From: Legionella qingyii
GTDB lineage: Bacteria > Pseudomonadota > Gammaproteobacteria > Legionellales > Legionellaceae
DNA length: 25,060 nt
Assembly (NCBI RefSeq): GCF_003184185.1
Contig: NZ_QHJG01000047.1
Span: forward strand, 1 to 25,060
Direction: 5' to 3'
In this document: piece by piece, positions 1 to 24,971 of the stretch
Numbering within the stretch: position 1 is the stretch's first letter
Layout: each line of letters opens with the position of its first letter
Translations under genes and position numbers: made by a program
The notes under the pieces: generated by a model
The model's database searches: none
The model's input: only the letters and a program-made list of their open reading frames with translations
What the model was told of the DNA's origin: nothing

Positions 1-1127
1 CTGTTTTATCAGAGCAGTCTGTTTTATCAGAGCAGTCTGTTTTATCAGAGCAGTCTGTTTTAACTGAATTAAAACAAGAAGTTGAAGTAAATCAGATAAA
101 CTCTAAACAAAAATACAATTTAATTAAGGATAGAAATACAACTACAAGACAAATGGAAGAACCGAGTCTATTTAGAACGGTCCAATTAAATGGATTACAA
201 ACTCCAATTCATATGCAAACTCAAAAAGCTCAAAATATGAACGAAAATACTTTAACTCAAGAAGTGCAGCAATTAGATGAACCTGCTTTAATTGAAAATA
301 AAGATGAAAATAATTTGTTACAAAATGAAGATATTATTTTCAATTCCGATTCTTACCGAATTATAAAAAGTGTTTCATCGGATCCTGCTCAGTCTGCTGA
401 ACACACTGAAGAGCCAGAGTGTATTCCCTCATCACGTGAAACACGTATGAAATCACCATTGGCTCCTAAAGTGAATTCCTGGGAGAGCAAAGAAGGAAAA
501 AATGAGGAGGAGCAGGAGGCTTTATTGCAAGCCATAACAGGTGTAATAGAAAATCAAAAGGAGACAACGTTGCCAACTCAGCCAAAACCTGCGCCTCTCA
601 GTGAACGTATTGATGAGATTAAATTACCATTAATGGTTAATGTATTGGCAAATGAGTTACGTACTACGCCTATGGAAAGTTCTGCTCGTACTTTCGATAC
701 AATTCCTCAATCTCTCACTATACCAGTTCAAATAGATAATCCTGAATGGTCAAACCAATTTTCAGAACATATTACCTGGCTTGGCCAGCAAGAAATTAAA
801 GGCGCGGTAATTAAAATAAATCCTGAAGACTTAGGTCCGTTGGAAATCAATATTAAAGTAATAAACGATGTAGCTTCAGTCAATATAACGACACATAATC
901 ATCATGTCCGAGAAATTATTGATCAGTCGTTACCTAAACTACAGGCAATGATGGCTGAACAGGGCTTAAATTTATCAGAAGTGCAAATTGATTCTGATAC
1001 CGGTTCACGTCAATTTTCACAACAGAATAATGGTAATCAGGCACATTTGACTCACGAAGAAGAAGTGGGTGTTACCCCCTTAAAGACCAAGAGGGTAATT
1101 AAAGGTTTGGTTGATTATTTTGCCTAA
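1..1127 (+). CDS. fliK: Flagellar hook-length control protein FliK, C-terminal part (5' truncated by window)
   Basis: FliK is the molecular ruler that measures the flagellar hook and switches export specificity from hook to filament. The reading frame is open from the window edge (codons begin at base 3), so the ATG at 153 is internal and the true start lies upstream. The N-terminal part seen here is polar, Gln/Glu/Asn-rich and low in complexity, as in FliK linkers, and begins with a VLSEQS repeat. The last ~110 residues form the conserved Flg_hook domain, with the signature NPEDLGPLEINIKV followed by a helix resembling VREIIDQSLPKLQAMMAEQG. After this comes the Gln/Asn-rich tail typical of the family. 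The stop is at 1125-1127. No other flagellar gene is in the window. Confidence in the family is high because the LGPLEI motif and the helix after it are diagnostic. Confidence 0.88.
   Translation, partial: VLSEQSVLSEQSVLSEQSVLTELKQEVEVNQINSKQKYNLIKDRNTTTRQMEEPSLFRTVQLNGLQTPIHMQTQKAQNMNENTLTQEVQQLDEPALIENKDENNLLQNEDIIFNSDSYRIIKSVSSDPAQSAEHTEEPECIPSSRETRMKSPLAPKVNSWESKEGKNEEEQEALLQAITGVIENQKETTLPTQPKPAPLSERIDEIKLPLMVNVLANELRTTPMESSARTFDTIPQSLTIPVQIDNPEWSNQFSEHITWLGQQEIKGAVIKINPEDLGPLEINIKVINDVASVNITTHNHHVREIIDQSLPKLQAMMAEQGLNLSEVQIDSDTGSRQFSQQNNGNQAHLTHEEEVGVTPLKTKRVIKGLVDYFA
3..62 (+). repeat. 18-bp tandem repeat in fliK (VLSEQS)
   Basis: Three identical copies of gttttatcagagcagtct occupy 3-20, 21-38 and 39-56, followed by the first six bases of a fourth. 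The unit is in frame and encodes VLSEQS. The array is cut by the window edge, so the total copy number is unknown. Perfect nucleotide identity, including wobble positions, points to recent expansion by slippage. Confidence 0.95.
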
Positions 1128-1173
1128 GAATTAATTCGCATAACACATTCGCTCAAGAATAAGCGCGAGTTAT

Positions 1174-1506
1174 TTAATGGCAACTTCTTTTGCAACGAAT
1201 TATATCTCCATTCCAGCGGTCAATGAGGCAGCTTTGGCTACAGCCATGCCCTATGTATCTCCAATCTGTCCAATAAAATCTTCTATGGTGACGGTGGTGA
1301 TTGTATGGAGGCGGTCCATAATATGGAGATGGTCCATAATAGTCGCCGGAATGATATCCAACGAAATAAGCAAGCTGTTGGTATGACAGTTTTGAAGATG
1401 TCGTTTCTGCCTTAGCTAAATTGCTGTATAAGAAACCTGCGAGTATTGTAAAAGACAGAATAAGGAGCCGAAAAATCTTGTAGCTTTGAATGCTTACCTT
1501 TTCCAT
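1174..1506 (-). CDS. Small secreted Tyr/His/Pro-rich protein with two CX3C motifs
   Basis: This 110-residue protein is not recognised as a named family. A basic N-terminus, a hydrophobic stretch (about residues 12-27) and an AKA site give a likely signal peptide cleaved near residue 33, so the mature product is probably periplasmic or secreted. The middle is rich in Tyr, Pro, Gly and His (YYGPSPYYGPPPY then NHHRHHRR). The C-terminus carries CSQSC and CKRSC, a pair of CX3C motifs that could form disulfides. The ATG at 1506 has a good ribosome site (TGGAG about 8 bases upstream on the minus strand). It faces away from the dehydrogenase starting at 1587, so the two probably share a divergent control region. 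The His cluster could bind metal, but that is only a guess. Similar short secreted proteins of unknown function are common in Legionella. Confidence 0.7.
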   Translation of the reverse strand: MEKVSIQSYKIFRLLILSFTILAGFLYSNLAKAETTSSKLSYQQLAYFVGYHSGDYYGPSPYYGPPPYNHHRHHRRFYWTDWRYIGHGCSQSCLIDRWNGDIIRCKRSCH

Positions 1507-1586
1507 GTTGCAACTCCATATTATGTTGTTACATTAGGAATTATAGATTATAAATGATTTTTCTGGGTAACTTTTGGATACGATTT

Positions 1587-2432
1587 ATGAAGGAAAAGAT
1601 AATTCTAATTACTGGATGTTCCAGTGGAATTGGCTTTGATGCTGTTTTTAGTCTGAAGAAAAGAGGGCATAGGGTTATTGGTTCATGTAGAAAAATGGAA
1701 GATGTCCAAAAATTATTAGATAGGGGAGTAGAAGCCGTTCAACTGGATGTTTCGGATTCATCTTCAATTCAAAATGCATTCGCCGAAGTGTTGGTTAAAA
1801 CAGAAGGGCGCTTGGATGTTTTGATTAATAACGCCGGATATGGCCAGGCAGGGGCTTTGGAAGATATTACACGCGATGTCTTACGCGCTCAATTTGAAAC
1901 GAACGTTTTCGGACTGCTTGAACTCACTAATCGAGCTATTCCCGTCATGCGTAAACAGGGATATGGTCGTATTATCAATATAAGTTCGATTTTAGGCATA
2001 ATCAGTATGCCTTTTCGCGGTGCTTATAATGCATCCAAGTATGCAGTAGAAGGTATAAGCGATACACTAAGATTGGAATTGAAATCTTCTGGTGTTGATG
2101 TGATAACGATAGAACCAGGTCCTATAGAAAGTCAGTTTCGGGCTAATTGTGTAGATAATTCATTAAATAACATTGATATGCAACATAGCTTTTTCAGCAA
2201 ACAGTATGAACGGATGCTGACCTCTTTTAAGCAAAAGAAATCCGAATCTATTTTTACTCGAAAAACCGATGCAGTGATTAACAAATTGATTCATGCCATT
2301 GAATCTAAAAGACCTAATGCCAAATATCCAGTAACGTTCCCAGCTCATCTTATGATTTTTTTAAAATGGATTTTAAGCGTTAAAATGCTGGATAAATTCT
2401 TTTTGCGGGTTTCAAAAAATGAACTGTCCTAA
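1587..2432 (+). CDS. Short-chain dehydrogenase/reductase (SDR family oxidoreductase)
   Basis: This is a classical SDR, an NAD(P)-dependent oxidoreductase with a Rossmann fold. I chose the ATG at 1587 (281 aa) over the one at 1554 because SDRs begin a few residues before the cofactor motif. From 1587, TGCSSGIG starts at residue 9, while the earlier start would add an atypical hydrophobic stub. The NNAG motif is near residue 81, and the catalytic triad is Ser134, Tyr147 and Lys151 (SSILG, then YNASK). Basic residues after the second strand (SCRK) hint at NADP preference. The C-terminal extension beyond the core resembles SDRs acting on steroids, retinol or lipids (17-beta-HSD-like), but the substrate cannot be read from sequence. 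It stands alone, with no operon partner. Family confidence is high. Confidence 0.9.
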   Translation: MKEKIILITGCSSGIGFDAVFSLKKRGHRVIGSCRKMEDVQKLLDRGVEAVQLDVSDSSSIQNAFAEVLVKTEGRLDVLINNAGYGQAGALEDITRDVLRAQFETNVFGLLELTNRAIPVMRKQGYGRIINISSILGIISMPFRGAYNASKYAVEGISDTLRLELKSSGVDVITIEPGPIESQFRANCVDNSLNNIDMQHSFFSKQYERMLTSFKQKKSESIFTRKTDAVINKLIHAIESKRPNAKYPVTFPAHLMIFLKWILSVKMLDKFFLRVSKNELS

Positions 2433-2570
2433 TTTTGATACTTAGAGGTTGGCGGCCGTGATAAAAATGGCATGGAATGATAACTTTTTAAAAAAAAAGA
2501 AGAAAAATTCAATTTTCTTTGCTAATATCTAAATGGGTTAAAAATCATTAACTATCAAGGAAGTAAAATT

Positions 2571-2768
2571 ATGAAAAAATCAACAATAGCTGTCGCTGCT
2601 TTATTAACTGTATTAGCAGCTCCTGTAGTATCTGTTGCTTATGCAGATGATGCTTCTACTACTACTAGCACTTGCAAAGGCTGTAATGGTTGCAAAGGCT
2701 GTAAAGGTTGCAAAGGCTGCAAGGGTTGTAACGGTTGCAAAGGCTGCGGCGGTTGCTCTGGTAGCTAA
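2571..2768 (+). CDS. Secreted Cys-rich XGC-repeat peptide
   Basis: This is a 65-residue protein with a clear signal peptide (MKKS, a hydrophobic core, AYA cleavage after residue 25). The mature part is about 40 residues: a short Asp/Ser/Thr-rich linker, then ten cysteines in a run of XGC triplets where X is mostly Lys (KGC, NGC, GGC), ending SGS. Nothing else is in the mature chain, so the cysteines must be the functional part, binding metal, carrying a modification or crosslinking. AAGGAAG at 2557-2563 is a strong ribosome site 7 bases before the ATG, and a strong terminator follows at 2789. Exported Cys-repeat peptides of HvfA type are RiPP metallophore precursors modified by MNIO enzymes. 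Those use EGKCG motifs, and no MNIO gene is nearby, so the similarity is only loose. The DUF6969-like gene at 2844 is the only candidate partner. Confidence 0.8.
   Translation: MKKSTIAVAALLTVLAAPVVSVAYADDASTTTSTCKGCNGCKGCKGCKGCKGCNGCKGCGGCSGS
2673..2756 (+). repeat. 9-bp coding repeat array (XGC triplets)
   Basis: A degenerate array of 9-bp units encodes Cys-Lys/Asn-Gly. Synonymous changes alternate (ggctgt/ggttgc, aaa/aag), which gives a partial 18-bp period. Wobble differences with a conserved peptide indicate purifying selection on the XGC pattern, not fresh slippage as in the fliK array. Confidence 0.85.
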
Positions 2769-2788
2769 TCTGTAGTTTTGGTTTTATT

Positions 2789-2820
2789 AAGAGGTAGTTT
2801 TTACTACCTCTTCTTTTTTT
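2789..2820 (+). terminator. Rho-independent terminator after the Cys-rich peptide
   Basis: A perfect 10-bp stem AAGAGGTAGT / ACTACCTCTT with a TTTT loop (2789-2812) is followed by CTTTTTTT. It lies 24 bases before the next gene at 2844. Most transcripts should therefore end after the peptide, leaving limited read-through into the DUF6969-like gene, unless that gene has its own promoter. Confidence 0.9.
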
Positions 2821-2843
2821 CTTCCTATATGAAGTAAAGAAAT

Positions 2844-3560
2844 ATGATTACTCATTCTGAATTTACATTACCTCAACTTAGCAATTGGCATAAAAATATT
2901 TATTTGAAATACGCCAAACAAATTTTAGAAGCCCAACAAATAATGACGGCAAAAAAAGGTAAAAGCATTCTGCATTATACCTTACAAAGGAAACGACGTT
3001 TTGAACGAATGAGCCATTATCCTCGCGGAGACCGCATTGATCATAAAACTGGTGCTCAATATTTTTATCATTGCCATAGAGAAAATTATGAAAGTACAGA
3101 GCATGGACATTTTCATTGTTTTTTACGTTACAAACATATACCCAAAAGTATCAAACCAGCCCCTTTGGCAGATTGGGACAAATATATCGATAACCCTATG
3201 ACCCATTTAATAGCAATTGGCATGAATCAACTGGGGCAACCAATACGCTTGTTCACAGTTAATCGGTGGGTTACTTCAGAAATTTGGTATAATGCGGAAT
3301 ATAGTGCACGCTTACTTAAACACTATAAAATGACTTTAAATGATGATCCTTACTGGCAAGTGCTGGATCGCTGGGTTGAAGGGATTTTGCATTTATTTAA
3401 ACCACAAATTTTATGGTTACATCAAGAACGTGATAAAAAAATCATGCATCATCAGGCAAATAATAGTTCAATTGAGAACCCTTATCTAGATTATGATCTT
3501 GAGGAGCTTTCAGAGATTTCAATTGATTTAAAACAACAGATTGAATGGCTAATAAGTTAG
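2844..3560 (+). CDS. DUF6969-like His-rich protein of unknown function
   Basis: This 238-residue soluble protein has no signal peptide or membrane segment. From memory its conserved blocks match the uncharacterised family I know as DUF6969: HYPRGD (58-63), YFYHCHR (73-79), EHGHFHCFLR (86-95), HLIAIGMN (about 111-118) and LFTVNRWVTSEIWY (136-149), then W and LFKPQI further on. The closely spaced His residues in HCH and HGHFH, with acidic and Arg neighbours, look like a metal or cofactor site, suggesting an enzyme. Its activity is unknown. It lies just downstream of the secreted XGC peptide in the same direction, separated only by a terminator, which suggests but does not prove a joint role. 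The ribosome site is weak (gaagtaaagaa). The gene ends in a terminator at 3579. Confidence 0.75.
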   Translation: MITHSEFTLPQLSNWHKNIYLKYAKQILEAQQIMTAKKGKSILHYTLQRKRRFERMSHYPRGDRIDHKTGAQYFYHCHRENYESTEHGHFHCFLRYKHIPKSIKPAPLADWDKYIDNPMTHLIAIGMNQLGQPIRLFTVNRWVTSEIWYNAEYSARLLKHYKMTLNDDPYWQVLDRWVEGILHLFKPQILWLHQERDKKIMHHQANNSSIENPYLDYDLEELSEISIDLKQQIEWLIS

Positions 3561-3578
3561 TATAAACTATTTTACGAG

Positions 3579-3604
3579 GATTGATTTTTTTAAATCAATC
3601 TTTG
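3579..3604 (+). terminator. Rho-independent terminator after the DUF6969-like gene
   Basis: A perfect 9-bp stem GATTGATTT / AAATCAATC with a 4-T loop (3579-3600) is followed by TTTG. The stem is AT-rich and the T-run short, so termination may be partial. Confidence 0.65.
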
Positions 3605-3660
3605 TAGCGAATAAGACTCTGTAGACCTCAAATTCAAAAATCAAAATAATTAATCTGTAC

Positions 3661-3666
3661 TATAAT
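3661..3666 (+). promoter_or_regulatory. Probable -10 element of the PAS-receiver gene
   Basis: A consensus TATAAT lies 35 bases before the ATG at 3702, just after a terminator, so a promoter is expected here. No convincing -35 box sits 16-18 bases upstream, which suggests a weak or activator-dependent promoter. Confidence 0.4.
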
Positions 3667-3701
3667 TTACATGCAAAATTATAAATTCTTGGAGCATTTG
3701 C

Positions 3702-4601
3702 ATGTCATCCCACGCTAAAAATAGGACTGAAGAAGATCTCAATTCGATACATGAGTATTACATGGAAATTATCAATTCAATGCCCAATATTGTTTATTGG
3801 GTTGATACTGAATGTAATCTAAAGGGATGCAATAACAATTTTGTCAAACTGCTGGGACTCAATACACTCAAAGATTTCAAAGGCACTCCTTATCAAAAAA
3901 TGGAAGAATTTGCTCATTGGGATAAGGAACGAATAGAAGAATTAAAACTAGAAGATATGAAAGTGATATTTTCGGGTGTTCCTCAGCATAACGTGGAGGA
4001 AAAAGCGATTGAAAACAATTCGGGTAAGACTTTTTACTTCCTATCATCACGTATATTAATGCGTAATCGCAATAAAAAAGTAATTGGATTGCTCGTGATT
4101 TTAAACGATATTACTTTAAGCAAAGAACTTGAAAAACATACTAACGTTTTACAAGAAGACAATCAAAAGACTCAACCTTTATTAAAAGAAGGTTATTTGC
4201 CTACTGTGCTCATGGTAGAAGATAATGTTATTGCACAAAACGTTGAAAAAGCACTACTAACTGCATTGCATTGTCAGGTTGATATAGCTGATTCTGCTGA
4301 TAGTGCAATAAAATTATTTCAACCTGGAAAATATGATTTAGTGCTAATGGACATTGGATTAGAAGATTCTTCTGGCTATGTCGTTGCAAAACAATTACGT
4401 CAAAAAGAAAAGAATACACAACATCATGTACCTATAATTGCCTTAACTGGTTTTGAAGCAGATGTAGTAAAATACGATTGCCAGCATTATTTTATGGAGG
4501 GGGCAATCAGCAAACCTTTAACCTGTGAACAAGCCGAACAAATTATCAAACATTATGTATACCACATGGATGTTCCTGTACGCGGTTTGAAGACGACTTA
4601 G
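3702..4601 (+). CDS. PAS domain - response regulator receiver protein without kinase or output domain
   Basis: This 299-residue cytoplasmic signalling protein has a PAS sensor domain at about residues 20-140 (NIVYWVDTECNLKGCNNNFVKLLG, ending VILNDIT). A short Gln/Lys linker leads to a receiver domain at about 166-288. The receiver has every phosphorylation residue: acidic pair E173/D174 (VEDN), phospho-acceptor D217 (LMDIGLED), T249 and K271 (SKP). No histidine kinase core or DNA-binding domain is present, although PAS and receiver domains of this kind usually flank a kinase in hybrid sensor kinases. It may be a hybrid kinase that lost its core, or a stand-alone phosphate sink or adaptor. GGAG at 3691-3694 gives a good ribosome site, so the start is well supported. 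No partner kinase is in the window. Confidence 0.85.
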   Translation: MSSHAKNRTEEDLNSIHEYYMEIINSMPNIVYWVDTECNLKGCNNNFVKLLGLNTLKDFKGTPYQKMEEFAHWDKERIEELKLEDMKVIFSGVPQHNVEEKAIENNSGKTFYFLSSRILMRNRNKKVIGLLVILNDITLSKELEKHTNVLQEDNQKTQPLLKEGYLPTVLMVEDNVIAQNVEKALLTALHCQVDIADSADSAIKLFQPGKYDLVLMDIGLEDSSGYVVAKQLRQKEKNTQHHVPIIALTGFEADVVKYDCQHYFMEGAISKPLTCEQAEQIIKHYVYHMDVPVRGLKTT

Positions 4602-4641
4602 TATGCTGTTATCATGATCATTTTCGAAATGAACTTATTCT

Positions 4642-5760
4642 ATGAGCAGTAATTCAACCGAAGCCAGTCGTATTTTATCTTTAGATGTTTTTCGTGGTCT
4701 TACTATGGCATTAATGGTTTTAGTCAACAGCCAGGGAACACGAATTTCATACCCCATACTAGAGCACGCTGAATGGAATGGATGCACTTTAGCTGATTTG
4801 GTGTTCCCTGCATTTTTATTTATAGTGGGAATTACTACCGTTATTAGTCTTAAAAGACACATAAAAGTGGAGAGTAATGCATTGCTTTATCGAAGCATTG
4901 TTACCCGTACGCTTCTTCTATTTTTATTTGGTATGTTTCTTAATGCTTTTCCATCACATTTTGATTTAGCAACCGTGCGTGTTTATGGTATTTTGCAACG
5001 CATCGCCATTTGTTACTTAGTCTGCGCTCTTCTCTATCTTAATACATCAGTTAGAACTCAAATTTTTATTTTTTGTGGCATTCTTATAAGTTATTGGTAT
5101 TTTCTGACTCAAATTCCTATCCCTGTTCCTGGCATGGATCAGTTAAGTATGACAAGAAACTGGGCAGGCTTCATTGATACTATAATATTTTCCCCCGCAC
5201 ATTTATTATCGAAAACGTTTGATCCAGAGGGGCTTCTAAGTACTATCCCGGCGATTGCCACGACTCTATCTGGAGTTTTAGCTGGACACTTTTTGCTGAC
5301 CGCCATCAATAAGCAAAAGAAAAGTATGATGATGATTTTGATGGGCATATTATCCCTGTTATTAGCTTGGATATGGAGTTATTACGTTCCTATTAATAAA
5401 AATTTATGGACAAGCTCATTTGTTTTATGGAGTAGCGGTTTTTCACTTATTGTTTTTGGTTTGTGTTTTTTTATTATTGATGTATTAGGTTATATAAAAT
5501 GGTCATTGCCTTTTAAGATTTTTGGCATGAATGCATTATTTATTTTTATTTTTCATGTTGTTTTACTGAAAATTCAATCCATGTTTGTTTTTACCCTGCC
5601 TAATGGGTCACAAGACATTTTAAGAGTGGCAATTTCAGATTATTTATTTGGACGTTTTCGTCCAGAAAATGCGGGGCTATTTTACGCCTTACTCTTTCTT
5701 TTCTTAAATTTTTTAGTTGCTGCTTTTTTATATCGACGAAAAATATTTTTTAAAATTTAA
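4642..5760 (+). CDS. NagX/HGSNAT-like membrane acyltransferase (DUF1624/DUF5009 type)
   Basis: A 372-residue integral membrane protein with about ten hydrophobic segments. The N-terminus matches the heparan-alpha-glucosaminide N-acetyltransferase family: LSLDVFRGLTMALMVLVN, then HAEWNGCTLADLVFP, then FLFIVG. In the human enzyme the His of the equivalent H-A-x-W-N-G motif is the acetyl carrier, and here it is His42. Bacterial relatives (NagX, YeiB-like) are thought to acetylate sugars across the inner membrane using cytoplasmic acetyl-CoA. The C-terminal half keeps FGMNALFIFIFHVVLLK, also typical. It follows the PAS-receiver gene after about 40 bases and may be cotranscribed with it. The ribosome site is poor. 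The sugar substrate is unknown, and no amino-sugar catabolic genes are nearby. Confidence 0.85.
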   Translation: MSSNSTEASRILSLDVFRGLTMALMVLVNSQGTRISYPILEHAEWNGCTLADLVFPAFLFIVGITTVISLKRHIKVESNALLYRSIVTRTLLLFLFGMFLNAFPSHFDLATVRVYGILQRIAICYLVCALLYLNTSVRTQIFIFCGILISYWYFLTQIPIPVPGMDQLSMTRNWAGFIDTIIFSPAHLLSKTFDPEGLLSTIPAIATTLSGVLAGHFLLTAINKQKKSMMMILMGILSLLLAWIWSYYVPINKNLWTSSFVLWSSGFSLIVFGLCFFIIDVLGYIKWSLPFKIFGMNALFIFIFHVVLLKIQSMFVFTLPNGSQDILRVAISDYLFGRFRPENAGLFYALLFLFLNFLVAAFLYRRKIFFKI

Positions 5761-17291: not shown

Positions 17292-17732
17292 TCATAATTT
17301 TATCATAGGAGATAACTTAGTTATATAAGATTTAAGAGATAAGTACTTTCCATAACCTAGATGTGCGGAGATTATTTTTTGTATTGGTACTCCTAATTGA
17401 TAAAGATGGAGAATCTTTTCTTTATCTTTATCTTTATCATACATCGATGCTTGGATAACACCTTTGGGTTTTCCCAGCTTTATTCCTTTTGCCACGCGTG
17501 CACGGAGCCCCTCTTTTGTTCGCTCTGAAATAAAATCTCTTTCTAATTCAGCAAGCATGGAAAAAATGGTGATTAGAACTTTATTAGCTACATTATTTTT
17601 AGCCGCTGGATTTAAATCAAGATTTTGTTTAATTAAAATTAACCTTGCTTGCTTCTCTTGCGTAATCATTTCTATTGTATTAAGTGTTTCTTTAATAGAG
17701 CGTCCAAGACGAGATAATTCAGAAGCAAGAAC
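17292..17732 (-). pseudogene. Serine resolvase/invertase, N-terminally truncated
   Basis: The visible protein starts in the middle of the catalytic domain: VLASELSRLGRSIKETL matches the helix after the active site. ILIKQNLDLNPAAKNNVANKVL and FSMLAELERDFISERTKEGLRARVAKG, the E-helix signature, follow. The C-terminal helix-turn-helix (KILHLYQLGVPIQKIISAHL) is intact, with a KDKDKDKEK run before it. The first ~60 residues, including the catalytic Ser near residue 10, are missing. Upstream of 17732 the same frame stays open but gives only a hydrophobic peptide antisense to the transposase, so it is not part of the gene. Such recombinases resolve Tn3 cointegrates at res. This copy cannot be active. 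Confidence 0.85.
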
Positions 17733-17734
17733 TA

Positions 17735-18573
17735 GGAAAATTATCCACCTGAACCAAAGCTGGATGAATTTACAAAACAAGCACTCGATGAGATGAATGC
17801 ACAAAACCATTATCAGATCCTGGAAGATTTATCCCTTAAATTACAGAACAGAGTGGCTGATATTTTGCGCAATATTGCTTTTGATATACCTGAAAATCAA
17901 GATATTCCTGCCATTTTGGTGGCCATCAAACACTATCAGGCTAAAACAGGTAATGTGGCGAAAGAGGCGCCCGACAGCTTTTTATCTGAAAAAGAGCAGG
18001 CAGCACTCTATTCCAGTGAGGGTAAATTCAGGGTATCCCTTCGAGAAGCAGACTATGTCGCCGATGGGTTATTACATAATCTTTCGATCAAGAGCACAAT
18101 CCATTCCACTGATACACATGGTTATTCTGAAGCAATTTTTGGGATATTGAACATGCTTGGGATTTATTTTGCACCCAGAATTAAAGGTCTCAAGAAATCC
18201 ACCCTATTCCAGAAATACCTATGAAACCAAAGGATATAAAATACTCCCACATCGCTATATTGACACTGATTTAATTAAAACACATTGGGATGACATTTTG
18301 CGTTTGATGGTTACAATTAAACTTAAAGCCACAACGGCATCACAACTGTTCAAGCGTCTCAGTTCATATTCTAAACAACATCCATTGTACTGTGCTATAA
18401 AGGAGTTTGGACGGATTATTAAAAGTCTGTTTATTCTTCGATATATCGATGATGTGGAATTACGACAGGCTGTTGAAAAGCAATTAAATCGTGTTGAGCT
18501 ATCGAATAAATTCTCAAATGCCATTTTGTTTGGTAACAACCAGGAAATTCAATACAGCAGCAAAGAGGAGTAA
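17735..18573 (+). pseudogene. Tn3-family transposase (TnpA) relic with internal deletion and frameshift
   Basis: The first section (17735-18034) reads PPEPKLDEFTKQAL and continues to FLSEKEQAALYSSEGKFRVSL, matching the region just before the central part of TnpA. It is joined directly to READYVADGLLHN and HSTDTHGYSEAIFGILNMLG, then FAPRIKGLKK, from the DDE catalytic region far downstream. Several hundred residues are thus missing in frame near 18035. A frameshift around 18205-18220 moves the frame to SRNTYETKGYKILPHRYID, THWDDILRL and LFKRLSSYSKQHPLY, up to FGNNQEIQYSSKEE and a stop at 18573 where the family normally continues. The 5' and 3' ends are missing. It is inactive but identifies a Tn3-family parent. 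Homology is judged from motif recall. Confidence 0.8.
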
Positions 18574-20501: not shown

Positions 20502-20903
20502 TTAACTTTTTTCAAAAGTCATAAGAATAGGACAAGGTGAGGATCCGGTATCTCTACATTTTGCTACTAAGAGTGATAGGGTGTTACGAGCCGCTGATAA
20601 CTCATCAATTTTTAAATTCAGTTGTTCAATACGCCTTTCAGCCATATCTCTTACATGTTCCCGATCATTTTTAGCATCAAACTCTAATAAATCTTTTATC
20701 TCTTTTAGAGTAAAGCCTGCTTTTTTAGCTAAAAGAATAAACCTTAAACGACTTATATCATTATCACCATAACGTTTTATTTTTGGGGCTCCAAGTTCTT
20801 TGGTACGTAATGGGACATGAAGCAGTCCTGTGCGTTGATAATAGCGTATGGTTTCAACTCCAACCCCACATAATTTAGCAAATTCACCGATTGTTTTATA
20901 CAT
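20502..20903 (-). CDS. MerR-family metal-responsive transcription regulator
   Basis: A 133-residue MerR-family activator. The winged helix-turn-helix at the N-terminus (IGEFAKLCGVGVETIRYYQRTGLL) and the RYGDNDISRLRFILLAKKAGFTLKEIKDLL segment are typical. After the long dimer helix a metal-binding loop carries Cys116 and Cys124 (C-x7-C, ending CPIL). Mercury sensors also need a Cys at the end of helix 5 (C82 in MerR), but the aligned residue here is Arg81. The C-x7-C spacing without that Cys matches CueR-type sensors of monovalent Cu, Ag or Au more closely than MerR. It is divergent from the Grx-MauE gene at 20973 and presumably controls it through the operator between them. No clear ribosome site precedes the ATG. 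Confidence 0.85.
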   Translation of the reverse strand: MYKTIGEFAKLCGVGVETIRYYQRTGLLHVPLRTKELGAPKIKRYGDNDISRLRFILLAKKAGFTLKEIKDLLEFDAKNDREHVRDMAERRIEQLNLKIDELSAARNTLSLLVAKCRDTGSSPCPILMTFEKS

Positions 20904-20906
20904 TAC

Positions 20907-20938
20907 TTGACTCAGTACTATGGTACGTACTCTATATT
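20907..20938 (+). promoter_or_regulatory. MerR-type promoter/operator between merR-like and Grx-MauE genes
   Basis: TTGACT (20907-20912) and TATATT (20933-20938) are 20 bases apart, the overlong spacing that MerR-family activators correct by twisting DNA. Inside the spacer GTAC-TATG-GTAC (20915-20926) forms a dyad with a 4-base centre, the same layout as the mer operator core (GTAC-N4-GTAC). It faces the Grx-MauE gene. Confidence 0.75.
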
Positions 20939-20972
20939 ACTATTTATAGACCATTAATCGTAGAGGATGAAA

Positions 20973-21716
20973 ATGAATAATAATTCAATTAAAAAAGCGA
21001 TTTTGTATCGCATGGTGATGGGGCATCATATTTGCCCTTATGGCCTTAAAGCCAGAGATTTATTAAGACGTCAAGGCTATGAGATAGAAGATCATAGGTT
21101 AACAACCCGTGAGCAAGTCGATACGTTTAAAAACAAACACAACGTAAAAACTACACCTCAAATTTTTATCAACGATGAGCGAATAGGTGGTTATGACGAT
21201 TTACGGCATTACTTTGGAAAAAAAATAAGAGACTCAAAAGAAAAAAGTTATCGCCCCGTCATTGCACTTTTCGTAGTTACTGCATTAATGGCAATGGCAG
21301 TTAGTTACATGAGCTTTGGTAATCCGTTTACGCCACAAGTTATAGGTTGGTTTATTGCGTTTAGCATGGCGGTCCTTGCTTTATTAAAACTACAAAATAT
21401 CGAAAGCTTCTCAACCATGTTTTTAAACTATGACCTTTTGGCTAAACGCTGGGTTCCTTACAGCTATATTTACCCATTTGCTGAAGGTTTAGCAGGGATA
21501 TTAATGATTTCAGGCGCGTTGAATTGGCTTTCCATTCCGGTTGCCTTATTTATTGGGACTGTAGGTGCTCTTTCTGTGTTTAAAGCTGTTTATATCGACA
21601 AACGTGATCTTAAATGCGCCTGTGTAGGAGGTGACAGTAACGTACCTTTAAGATTTATTTCACTCACTGAAAATTTAATGATGATGGGCATGGCTTTATT
21701 CATGTTGATTAAGTAA
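20973..21716 (+). CDS. Glutaredoxin-MauE fusion membrane protein
   Basis: A 247-residue protein. I start it at ATG 20973 because AGAGG lies six bases before, while the ATG at 20967 abuts that site. The N-terminal glutaredoxin domain (about 1-80) has a CPYG active site at Cys21 and TPQIFINDERIGGYDDL, so the second active-site Cys is replaced by Gly and chemistry would be monothiol. The rest is a MauE/DoxX-type redox membrane domain of four hydrophobic segments (about 90-247), ending with CACVGG and LTENLMMMG typical of MauE. Such fusions are thought to move thiol electrons across the inner membrane and are often linked to metal resistance loci. Control by the divergent MerR-family regulator fits a metal-stress role. 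No metal pump is in the window. Confidence 0.85.
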   Translation: MNNNSIKKAILYRMVMGHHICPYGLKARDLLRRQGYEIEDHRLTTREQVDTFKNKHNVKTTPQIFINDERIGGYDDLRHYFGKKIRDSKEKSYRPVIALFVVTALMAMAVSYMSFGNPFTPQVIGWFIAFSMAVLALLKLQNIESFSTMFLNYDLLAKRWVPYSYIYPFAEGLAGILMISGALNWLSIPVALFIGTVGALSVFKAVYIDKRDLKCACVGGDSNVPLRFISLTENLMMMGMALFMLIK

Positions 21717-24084: not shown

Positions 24085-24971
24085 ATGGCGTATATCAGTG
24101 AGTTGAGTAGGATTTTAAGCCAGAGATTAGATTGGCACAAGTCACGAATAGACTGTTTTGCACAAATGTTGTTAGCCTTATTTGTGGTGCGAAGCGTTAA
24201 TTTAAGTGAAATTGCAGTGGCTATGAATGGTGATAAGGCGAGTATTGAATCACGCTATAAAAGGATATACGCTCTATTTTTTAATAAAGAACATAAAGTC
24301 TATTTAGCTATAGACCGAACGAATGGGTATTGGGGAAAAGCGAAGATCAACGTGTTAGAGAGTTCCCGAACAAAACCCTTATATCTTGGCTTGTAGCAGA
24401 GAAGATTCCTTTTTATTTACGGATTAAAGGTAACATAGATATTTGTGTGGGCAAGAAGAAATTTAAAACTTCAGCTCAGTTATTCAGCCACTTAGCACCA
24501 TACCAGCAACAGGTATTTGGCATGAACGTTCAGGTGTTTGGTCAATCTCTTTATCTCGCAGGTAGCAAAAACTCTCGTGAAGACTTGATGATTGTTGTAA
24601 CAAACCAGAATCCCAAGAATGCCATCGCTTGTTATTTGCGCCGTTGGGAAATAGAAACACTTTTTGCTGCATTAAAAACAAAGGGATGGCGATTTGAAGA
24701 CACACGAATTATTGATCCTCAGCGTATAGAAAAACTCCTGGTTTTATTAGCCTTGGGGTTTGTCTGGGCCCATCGTATTGGTGAGTGGAAGGCAACTATT
24801 AAACCGATTCCTCTTAAAAAAATAAGGAATCAAAAAAGACCCAAAAACAGTTTTTTCCGATTGGGTTTAGATCATCTTAGAGATTTGCTAACCAATTCCA
24901 AAATTAAAATTAAATTGTTTTTAAATCTCTCAAATTGGATTTTGTTTGACCTTGAAAAAACTCTCTTCTAA
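24085..24971 (+). pseudogene. IS4-family transposase, deleted and frameshifted
   Basis: The gene starts at ATG 24085 behind AAGGAG. The first part encodes the N-terminal helix domain (SELSRILSQRLDWHKSRIDCFAQML, SIESRYKRIYALFF) and the first catalytic Asp in YLAIDRTNGYWGK. Soon after this the frame ends at 24396. A second frame, overlapping from 24330, resumes with REFPNKTLISWLVAEKIPFYLRIKGN and then the third catalytic region YLRRWEIETLFAALKTKGWRFED, whose Glu is the E of DDE. The segment holding the second Asp is missing, so an internal deletion and a frameshift lie around 24340-24390. The protein cannot be active, though it could be mobilised in trans through the terminal repeats. Confidence 0.82.

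Follow-up and report, generated by a model that had tools for sequence, protein, structure and literature searches.

Exported cysteine-repeat peptides accompany the uncharacterised protein family DUF6969 in Legionella and in two further bacterial groups

Background

A 25,060 nucleotide stretch of the Legionella qingyii genome (contig NZ_QHJG01000047.1, positions 1 to 25,060, hereafter the window) carries on its forward strand a gene for a small exported cysteine (Cys) rich peptide followed by a gene for a protein of the family DUF6969 (PF22308), and the presence of the two side by side raises the question as to whether they are functionally paired and what the second does for the first. An initial annotation of the sequence had proposed that the DUF6969-like protein may modify, load or regulate the peptide in a metal-handling system. 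Our analysis indicates that DUF6969 and Cys-repeat peptides are almost certainly linked in function, the proposed pairing being found again, beside Cys-repeat peptides of unrelated sequence, in Legionellaceae, Alphaproteobacteria and other Gammaproteobacteria. We give roughly even chances to a more specific reading drawn from the sequences, in which DUF6969 works in the cytosol as the dedicated partner of exported Cys-repeat peptides, probably maturing them in a metal-dependent way, and the two together form a metal-buffering system resembling the bufferins.

The peptide and DUF6969 genes

The peptide gene (2571-2768, + strand) is an open reading frame (ORF) of 65 amino acids with 10 Cys. It consists of a Sec-type signal or leader region of 25 residues (2571..2645), with the cut after AYA placed by eye, and a mature part of 40 residues (2646..2765) with CxxC arrays, in which nine of the 10 Cys sit in XGC triplets; the exported peptide of the initial annotation is thereby confirmed. 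A terminator stem-loop of 10 pairs with a 4-nt loop follows (2789-2812, + strand) and is succeeded by CTTTTTTT, a T-run. This was the single hairpin found compared with 0.9 in shuffled sequence, so that by itself it is not significant; a hairpin and T-run nevertheless recur between the two genes in 36 of the 50 related loci that bear a peptide, window included, and the terminator is retained here. The DUF6969 gene (2844..3560, + strand) encodes 238 amino acids with no signal peptide by eye, and its match to PF22308 over residues 22-227 (E 1e-73, 247.7 bits, curated cut-off 27 bits) makes it a clear and full-length member of the family. The protein is 96% identical to a Fluoribacter (Legionella) gormanii entry and 95% identical to the copy in F. 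gormanii ATCC 33342.

Pairing in Legionellaceae

Relatives were collected by scanning a 28-sequence DUF6969 alignment against genome contigs, the best 80 of 221 being used. The Legionellaceae-type set comprises the window and 60 of these loci (L001-L059 and L061), a few of which carry broader labels such as Gammaproteobacteria metagenome-assembled genome, and those entered in the DUF6969 tree fall in one clade. Immediately 5' of DUF6969, at a distance of 5-140 bp, 50 of the 61 loci (50 of the 56 that are uncut) encode a small exported peptide whose leader is similar, and 46 of the 50 peptides have at least five Cys. Exported peptides with this leader are found at the corresponding position in 49 of the 60 related loci, so that the repeat in the window peptide is not a product of chance. 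Mean pairwise identity across the 50 sequences is 0.73 for the leader (residues 1-26) compared with 0.42 for the mature Cys part, and a leader so much more conserved than its core is the pattern expected if it were recognised by more than the export machinery.

Five of the 11 loci lacking a peptide are truncated by a contig end (L027, L031, L034, L058, L059), four are second DUF6969 copies that form one clade and whose genomes also hold a paired copy (L038, L045, L050, L053), and two are unexplained (L054, L056). A coproporphyrinogen III oxidase gene adjoins the second copy at L053 and the upstream neighbours at L038 and L045 are similar, judged by the start of their sequences.

A block of ~70 bp 5' of the peptide gene is kept across 26 sequences in a 130-bp upstream alignment of the window and 25 Legionella loci. 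The promoter-like region and 5' leader (2499..2570, + strand) conserved in this alignment contain a GAAGAAAA block, an extended -10-like TGCTAATAT (2520-2528), a TGGGT block and the strong Shine-Dalgarno AAGGAAG (2557-2563), and this arrangement looks like a promoter belonging to the peptide gene itself. A consensus promoter scan of the window did not list the TGCTAATAT site, and nothing was found by an Rfam scan of window positions 1100-4700 or a tRNA scan of the whole window. The supposition that the peptide has its own promoter and terminator holds as far as the conserved upstream region and the stem-loop are concerned, and fits less well with the three Legionellaceae-type loci in which the gap between the genes is just 5-7 bp.

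Pairing in Alphaproteobacteria and other Gammaproteobacteria

The 20 divergent loci of the contig scan (L060 and L062-L080) are labelled alphaproteobacterial, and a first rule placed a non-homologous Cys-repeat ORF near 13 of them, with repeats such as CAANPCAANPC and CAACDPCAPC. For a survey free of manual selection, 385 alphaproteobacterial genomes were screened for PF22308, and 90 of them carry DUF6969; two fragment matches (G082:C468, G027:C44) were left out of the loci. An exported Cys-repeat ORF, mostly with NPC repeats, lies within ~5 kb of DUF6969 in 46 of 98 loci, whereas 30 control regions (378 kb) drawn from other parts of 21 of these genomes contained none. Where more than 5 kb is available on both sides the figure is 35 of 67, and with a relaxed rule five of 48 re-examined negative loci gained a Cys-repeat ORF while the controls stayed at 0/30. 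Other Cys repeats lie 101 bp (L173) and 211 bp (L177) from DUF6969. L124 overlaps L227 on a shared contig, and a single locus of one genome is entered in different sets as L073 and L238.

A hydrophobic stretch precedes the repeat in all 56 alphaproteobacterial Cys-repeat ORFs by a lenient hydrophobicity test. The partners are of two kinds. One consists of short peptides that have little besides a hydrophobic leader and the repeat, several of which lie 80-260 bp from DUF6969, and the other of longer proteins with CxxCH near the C-terminus (CxxCH is present in 24 of the 56). When three long Cys-repeat proteins were scanned with Pfam, that of L141 passed the cytochrome P460 cut-off and those of L065 and L073 fell below it.

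The association is also seen at the level of whole genomes. At least two NPCNPC DNA matches occur in 36 of the 385 alphaproteobacterial genomes and 33 of these 36 carry DUF6969 (odds ratio 56, p=3e-20, uncorrected for relatedness), as do 37 of the 49 genomes with at least one match (p=6e-17, again uncorrected for relatedness). No corresponding association of the NPC-repeat genomes was found with MNIO, the modifying enzyme of bufferin clusters (12/36 vs 148/385 overall, p=0.59). The environmental alphaproteobacterium Alkalilacustris brevis gave no MNIO match. Among the NPC-repeat genomes that lack DUF6969, the contig of G135 ends inside a gene resembling a formylglycine-generating enzyme (FGE), and in G169 the match examined, the first, falls in an unrelated 1252-aa ORF.

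The gammaproteobacterial set represents 20 of 27 places, two of the seven left out being F. gormanii itself. By a looser rule, applied with no controls, a Cys-repeat partner was found in 7 of the 20 loci, in designs that include NPCAPSARGG repeats, NPCSLDED repeats and NPC proteins with a cytochrome domain, which in the one protein scanned is SoxA/TsdA-like. A further frame, at L277, was rejected by eye as out-of-frame and Arg-rich. The unrelated precursor types beside DUF6969 include XGC, NPC, NPC-cytochrome, NPCAPSARGG and AEGCC.

The DUF6969 tree comprises 167 rows and was made with a quick method, many of its forks being weakly supported; five cut Legionellaceae-type loci, four alphaproteobacterial loci with matches shorter than 520 bases and the gammaproteobacterial L270, L275 and L282 were left out. 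The NPC label needs 25 changes on this tree, which indicates that partner-bearing rows are spread widely and do not form one clade. Since the XGC and NPC labels were assigned according to whether or not a locus belonged to the Legionellaceae-type set, the fact that they separate on the tree tests nothing.

Sequence and predicted structure of DUF6969

In an alignment of 49 diverse DUF6969 sequences 19 positions are invariant, namely H58, P60, D66, Q72, Y75, H76, H78, E86, H87, G88, H89, F90, H91, R95, H121, G131, F137, N140 and W142. Three blocks on the + strand, noticed in the initial annotation (the last as HGHFHCF), contribute to these: HYPRGD (3015..3032, residues 58-63) supplies H58 and P60, YHCHR (3066..3080, residues 75-79) supplies Y75, H76 and H78, and EHGHFHCF (3099..3122, residues 86-93), which lies on a predicted strand at 86-95, is invariant from E86 to H91. 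The Cys of YHCHR (C77) is variable in the family and is Ala in the alphaproteobacterial members aligned.

AlphaFold2 gave confident models for the window protein (predicted local distance difference test, pLDDT, 92.0; predicted template modelling score, pTM, 0.91) and for one alphaproteobacterial member (pLDDT 92.2, pTM 0.89). In the predicted model several invariant histidines (His) stand at alternate positions in and beside strands 71-77 and 86-95, an arrangement that would suit a metal site on a single sheet face. Foldseek against the PDB (both models) and against viral models (first model), as well as VIA, returned scattered weak rows and no solved-structure match, which is not proof of a new fold. 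The best PDB sequence match of the family profile, a valine-tRNA ligase at E 0.11, is at chance level and was set aside. A Pfam scan at E up to 1 gave only DUF6969 and a weak AHSP match for this protein, with no match to MNIO (PF05114) and no DNA-binding or known sensory domain. The name and description of PF22308 state no function, and among open-licence PMC papers we found none naming the family.

Neighbouring genes and the bufferin systems

FGE and NrsF profiles were built from the surveyed loci and single members were checked with Pfam. An FGE-sulfatase-like protein with a signal-like start occurs in 30 of the 98 alphaproteobacterial survey loci and is enriched with Cys repeats (22 loci with both, 8 with the FGE only, 24 with the repeat only and 44 with neither, p=8e-4). 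A cytochrome c cluster is found near DUF6969 in 27 of 118 loci, while NrsF, together with an extracytoplasmic function (ECF) sigma factor, is found near it in 10 of the 20 alphaproteobacterial genome-contig loci, many of them labelled Rhodobacteraceae, and in 4 of the 98 survey loci. A YeeE/YedE-type sulfur transporter cluster and a rhodanese cluster each occur in 9 of the 118. Beside NPC proteins (L126, L141, L217 and others) the FGE-sulfatase-like proteins have a conserved GSWDDKGCGVCRPAARH end, and the one scanned, from L126, resembles EgtB, OvoA and SenA models below cut-off.

MNIO is near DUF6969 in just 2 of 198 loci (one of the 98 alphaproteobacterial survey loci and one of the 20 gammaproteobacterial loci) and in 0/30 controls; neither the 20 alphaproteobacterial genome-contig loci, the 60 Legionellaceae-type loci nor the window contained it. 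The two loci with MNIO are informative. L266 carries, on one strand, genes for thioredoxin, a DsbD-type membrane protein, two NPC peptides, DUF6969, MNIO and DUF2063, and at L166 a Buf1-type precursor (DUF2282), MNIO, DUF2063 and NrsF lie within ~6 kb of DUF6969 in a locus that also has an NPC ORF and thioredoxin. The DUF6969/Cys-repeat set is thus found among bufferin parts, though the bufferin enzyme itself is usually missing.

In bufferins (Buf1 DUF2282 and Buf2, with MNIO, DUF2063 and DoxX) a Cys-rich precursor with a Sec signal peptide is accompanied by one or more separate partner proteins, a Cys-derived thiooxazole being a further mark of the class, and such a precursor is found, by inspection of the signal peptide, in the window and its relatives. 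Excerpts of a survey of MNIO clusters (PMC12452194) describe sigma factors and NrsF in Buf1 clusters and fusions of the form Buf1|Cytochrom_C|FGE-sulfatase, associations that the DUF6969 loci share, and give its authors' view of formylglycine-generating enzymes as cuproenzymes. An excerpt of a study of Caulobacter (PMC3511200) describes SigmaF/NrsF as responding to chromium and cadmium. The systems differ in that MNIO is missing from the window and from 196 of 198 screened DUF6969 loci, and that DUF6969 is unrelated to the bufferin partners and of unmatched fold. DUF2063 and DoxX were matched by none of 10 window proteins in the Pfam scan, no screen having been aimed at these two. The window peptide matches BufA2 (NF050166) with 23.7 bits (E 4e-5) against a cut-off of 60, and we do not count it as a member since this is far below the cut-off.

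The oxazolins or HvfA (Buf_EGKCG) resemble the window peptide in being exported with many regularly repeated Cys, and differ from it in their EGKCG motif and adjacent MNIO. A metallothionein is likewise a small CxxC-rich protein, and the database names of close homologues include 'Metallothionein'; the window peptide differs in being exported, in its highly conserved leader and in its dedicated partner gene, and no metallothionein model was found for it in Pfam and NCBIfam at E up to 1, where HMMER filters drop most matches above ~0.1. The precomputed Pfam domain PF27784 is present on some XGC peptides (homologues P0125, P0128 and P0134) and absent from the Pfam scan of the window peptide. Matches of the peptide to PHROG families were dismissed as apparent low-complexity similarity to tail fibres. 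Among open-licence PMC papers no relevant one was found on NPC- and KGC-type Cys-repeat peptides, and the matches listed for Legionella metallothionein included no relevant title.

Other features of the window

At 1174-1506 (- strand) lies an exported-looking protein of 110 amino acids, His/Tyr-rich with a Cys-containing end and no Pfam match; L035 and L249 have similar proteins at the corresponding position. Positions 1-60, at the window edge, hold a short tandem repeat with a unit of ~18 bp, and a similar repeat with more copies occurs in the L001 frame. A MerR-type regulator divergent from a glutaredoxin-MauE fusion protein (20502-21716) is possibly a thiol or metal unit, and ORF pieces at 17292-18573 and 24085-24971 are apparent remnants of mobile elements, resolvase-like and transposase-like by eye.

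Discussion

Among modifying, loading and regulating, modification of the peptide by DUF6969 is the likeliest role. DUF6969 is best read, by analogy with what MNIO-DUF2063 is thought to do for bufferins, as acting on the peptides before export, because it has invariant His, Asp and Glu and stays beside CxxC-rich peptides while the peptide families change. In such a scheme the precursor would be made from its own promoter and, before leaving the cytosol, would offer its CxxC-rich core to DUF6969 by way of the conserved leader. DUF6969, through a putative metal site of the invariant His, Asp and Glu, would modify or otherwise mature the Cys array. The peptide would then be exported by Sec and buffer metal in the periplasm, binding a soft metal, most likely copper and possibly cadmium, zinc or mercury. 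The cytosolic location of DUF6969, its enzymatic nature and its binding of metal are inferences, as are the modification of the peptide and the identity of the bound metal; a metal-handling role is suggested by the neighbours shared with bufferins (sigma factor-NrsF, FGE-sulfatase and cytochrome c) and the CxxC arrays. A broader proposal, that DUF6969 founds a new class of metal-dependent, MNIO-independent peptide-modifying enzymes acting on exported CxxC-repeat precursors, which would constitute a widespread ribosomal metallophore family, is more tentative and we hold it to be somewhat less probable than its opposite.

A number of observations weigh against a dedicated maturase. A Cys-repeat neighbour was not detected in 52 of the 98 alphaproteobacterial loci or 13 of the 20 gammaproteobacterial loci, and 57 of the 90 DUF6969 genomes lack repeated (at least two) NPCNPC DNA matches; the outcome that the initial annotation had named as refuting, DUF6969 genes for the most part without such a neighbour, did not arise in the Legionellaceae-type loci (50/61 with a neighbour), but roughly half of the alphaproteobacterial loci (46/98 with a neighbour) and the majority of the gammaproteobacterial ones (7/20) are partnerless. 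Given these partnerless loci, DUF6969 might act in trans or on substrates of another kind. The KGC and NPC motifs had already been seen when the detection rules were drawn up, the genomes are not phylogenetically independent, and the gammaproteobacterial rule was looser than the alphaproteobacterial one and without controls. Four of the 50 Legionellaceae-type peptides have just 3-4 Cys. The alphaproteobacterial genome G307 (L250) has an NPC protein without DUF6969 and is a real exception, and the Legionellaceae genome G480 (L249) keeps a KGC peptide at the syntenic site, between SDR-like and PAS-REC-like genes, with no DUF6969 match genome-wide, so that the peptide can persist alone. No fold match of DUF6969 points to a chemistry. 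Finally, the absence of MNIO that had been put forward holds for the window, with 0 matches, and does not extend to this type of genome, as 9/9 Legionella genomes tested have MNIO elsewhere (three copies in F. gormanii ATCC 33342), which could do the modification.

The best surviving alternative, which we consider unlikely, is that DUF6969 is a metallochaperone or thiol-protecting carrier that binds metal, the unfolded Cys-rich precursor or both and hands the precursor to Sec in a reduced or loaded state with no covalent change. The His-rich invariant site would suit such a protein, as would the thioredoxin and DsbD-type membrane protein adjoining the L266 cluster and the thioredoxin of L166, and persistence of the peptide without DUF6969 in G480 could be expected of a helper. 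However, the invariant E86, D66, Y75, R95, N140 and W142 would appear to resemble an active site more than a metal shuttle. Sec-exported proteins travel unfolded, so that metal loading before export would be improbable.

Less probable again is a reading in which the peptide acts as an ordinary, unmodified metallothionein of the periplasm and DUF6969 regulates or senses the stress response to which both belong. The names given to close homologues, the separate promoter-like region and terminator, and sigma factor-NrsF neighbours suggesting stress regulons for some of these genes are all in keeping with regulation, whereas DUF6969 has no DNA-binding or known sensory domain in the Pfam scan and stays paired despite the changing peptide family, for which substrate handling is the better fit.

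The Cys-repeat proteins might also serve sulfur and not metal, carrying sulfane sulfur or relaying periplasmic dithiols, with DUF6969 maturing them. This is improbable to a still greater degree, although the recurrence of YeeE/YedE-type transporters and rhodaneses near alphaproteobacterial DUF6969 in a minority of loci keeps a sulfur role in play, and the SoxA/TsdA-like cytochrome domain on a gammaproteobacterial NPC protein and the similarity of the FGE-like protein to the EgtB, OvoA and SenA models lie in the same direction; most of the 118 loci are without such genes and none stands beside the window pair. That DUF6969 is a housekeeping protein near Cys-rich genes by chance, as the many loci with no Cys-repeat neighbour and the Legionella second copy adjoining a coproporphyrinogen III oxidase gene might suggest, is close to refuted by the 46/98 loci against 0/30 controls and by the co-occurrence across genomes (p=3e-20, uncorrected for relatedness).

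An uncharacterised family of unmatched predicted fold is now tied to Cys-repeat peptides in three bacterial groups, and its function is directly testable. If DUF6969 modifies these peptides it would be a second enzyme class for bufferin-like metallophores, which the excerpts of the MNIO-cluster survey (PMC12452194) tie to MNIO, and it would explain the occurrence of Cys-repeat proteins without MNIO.
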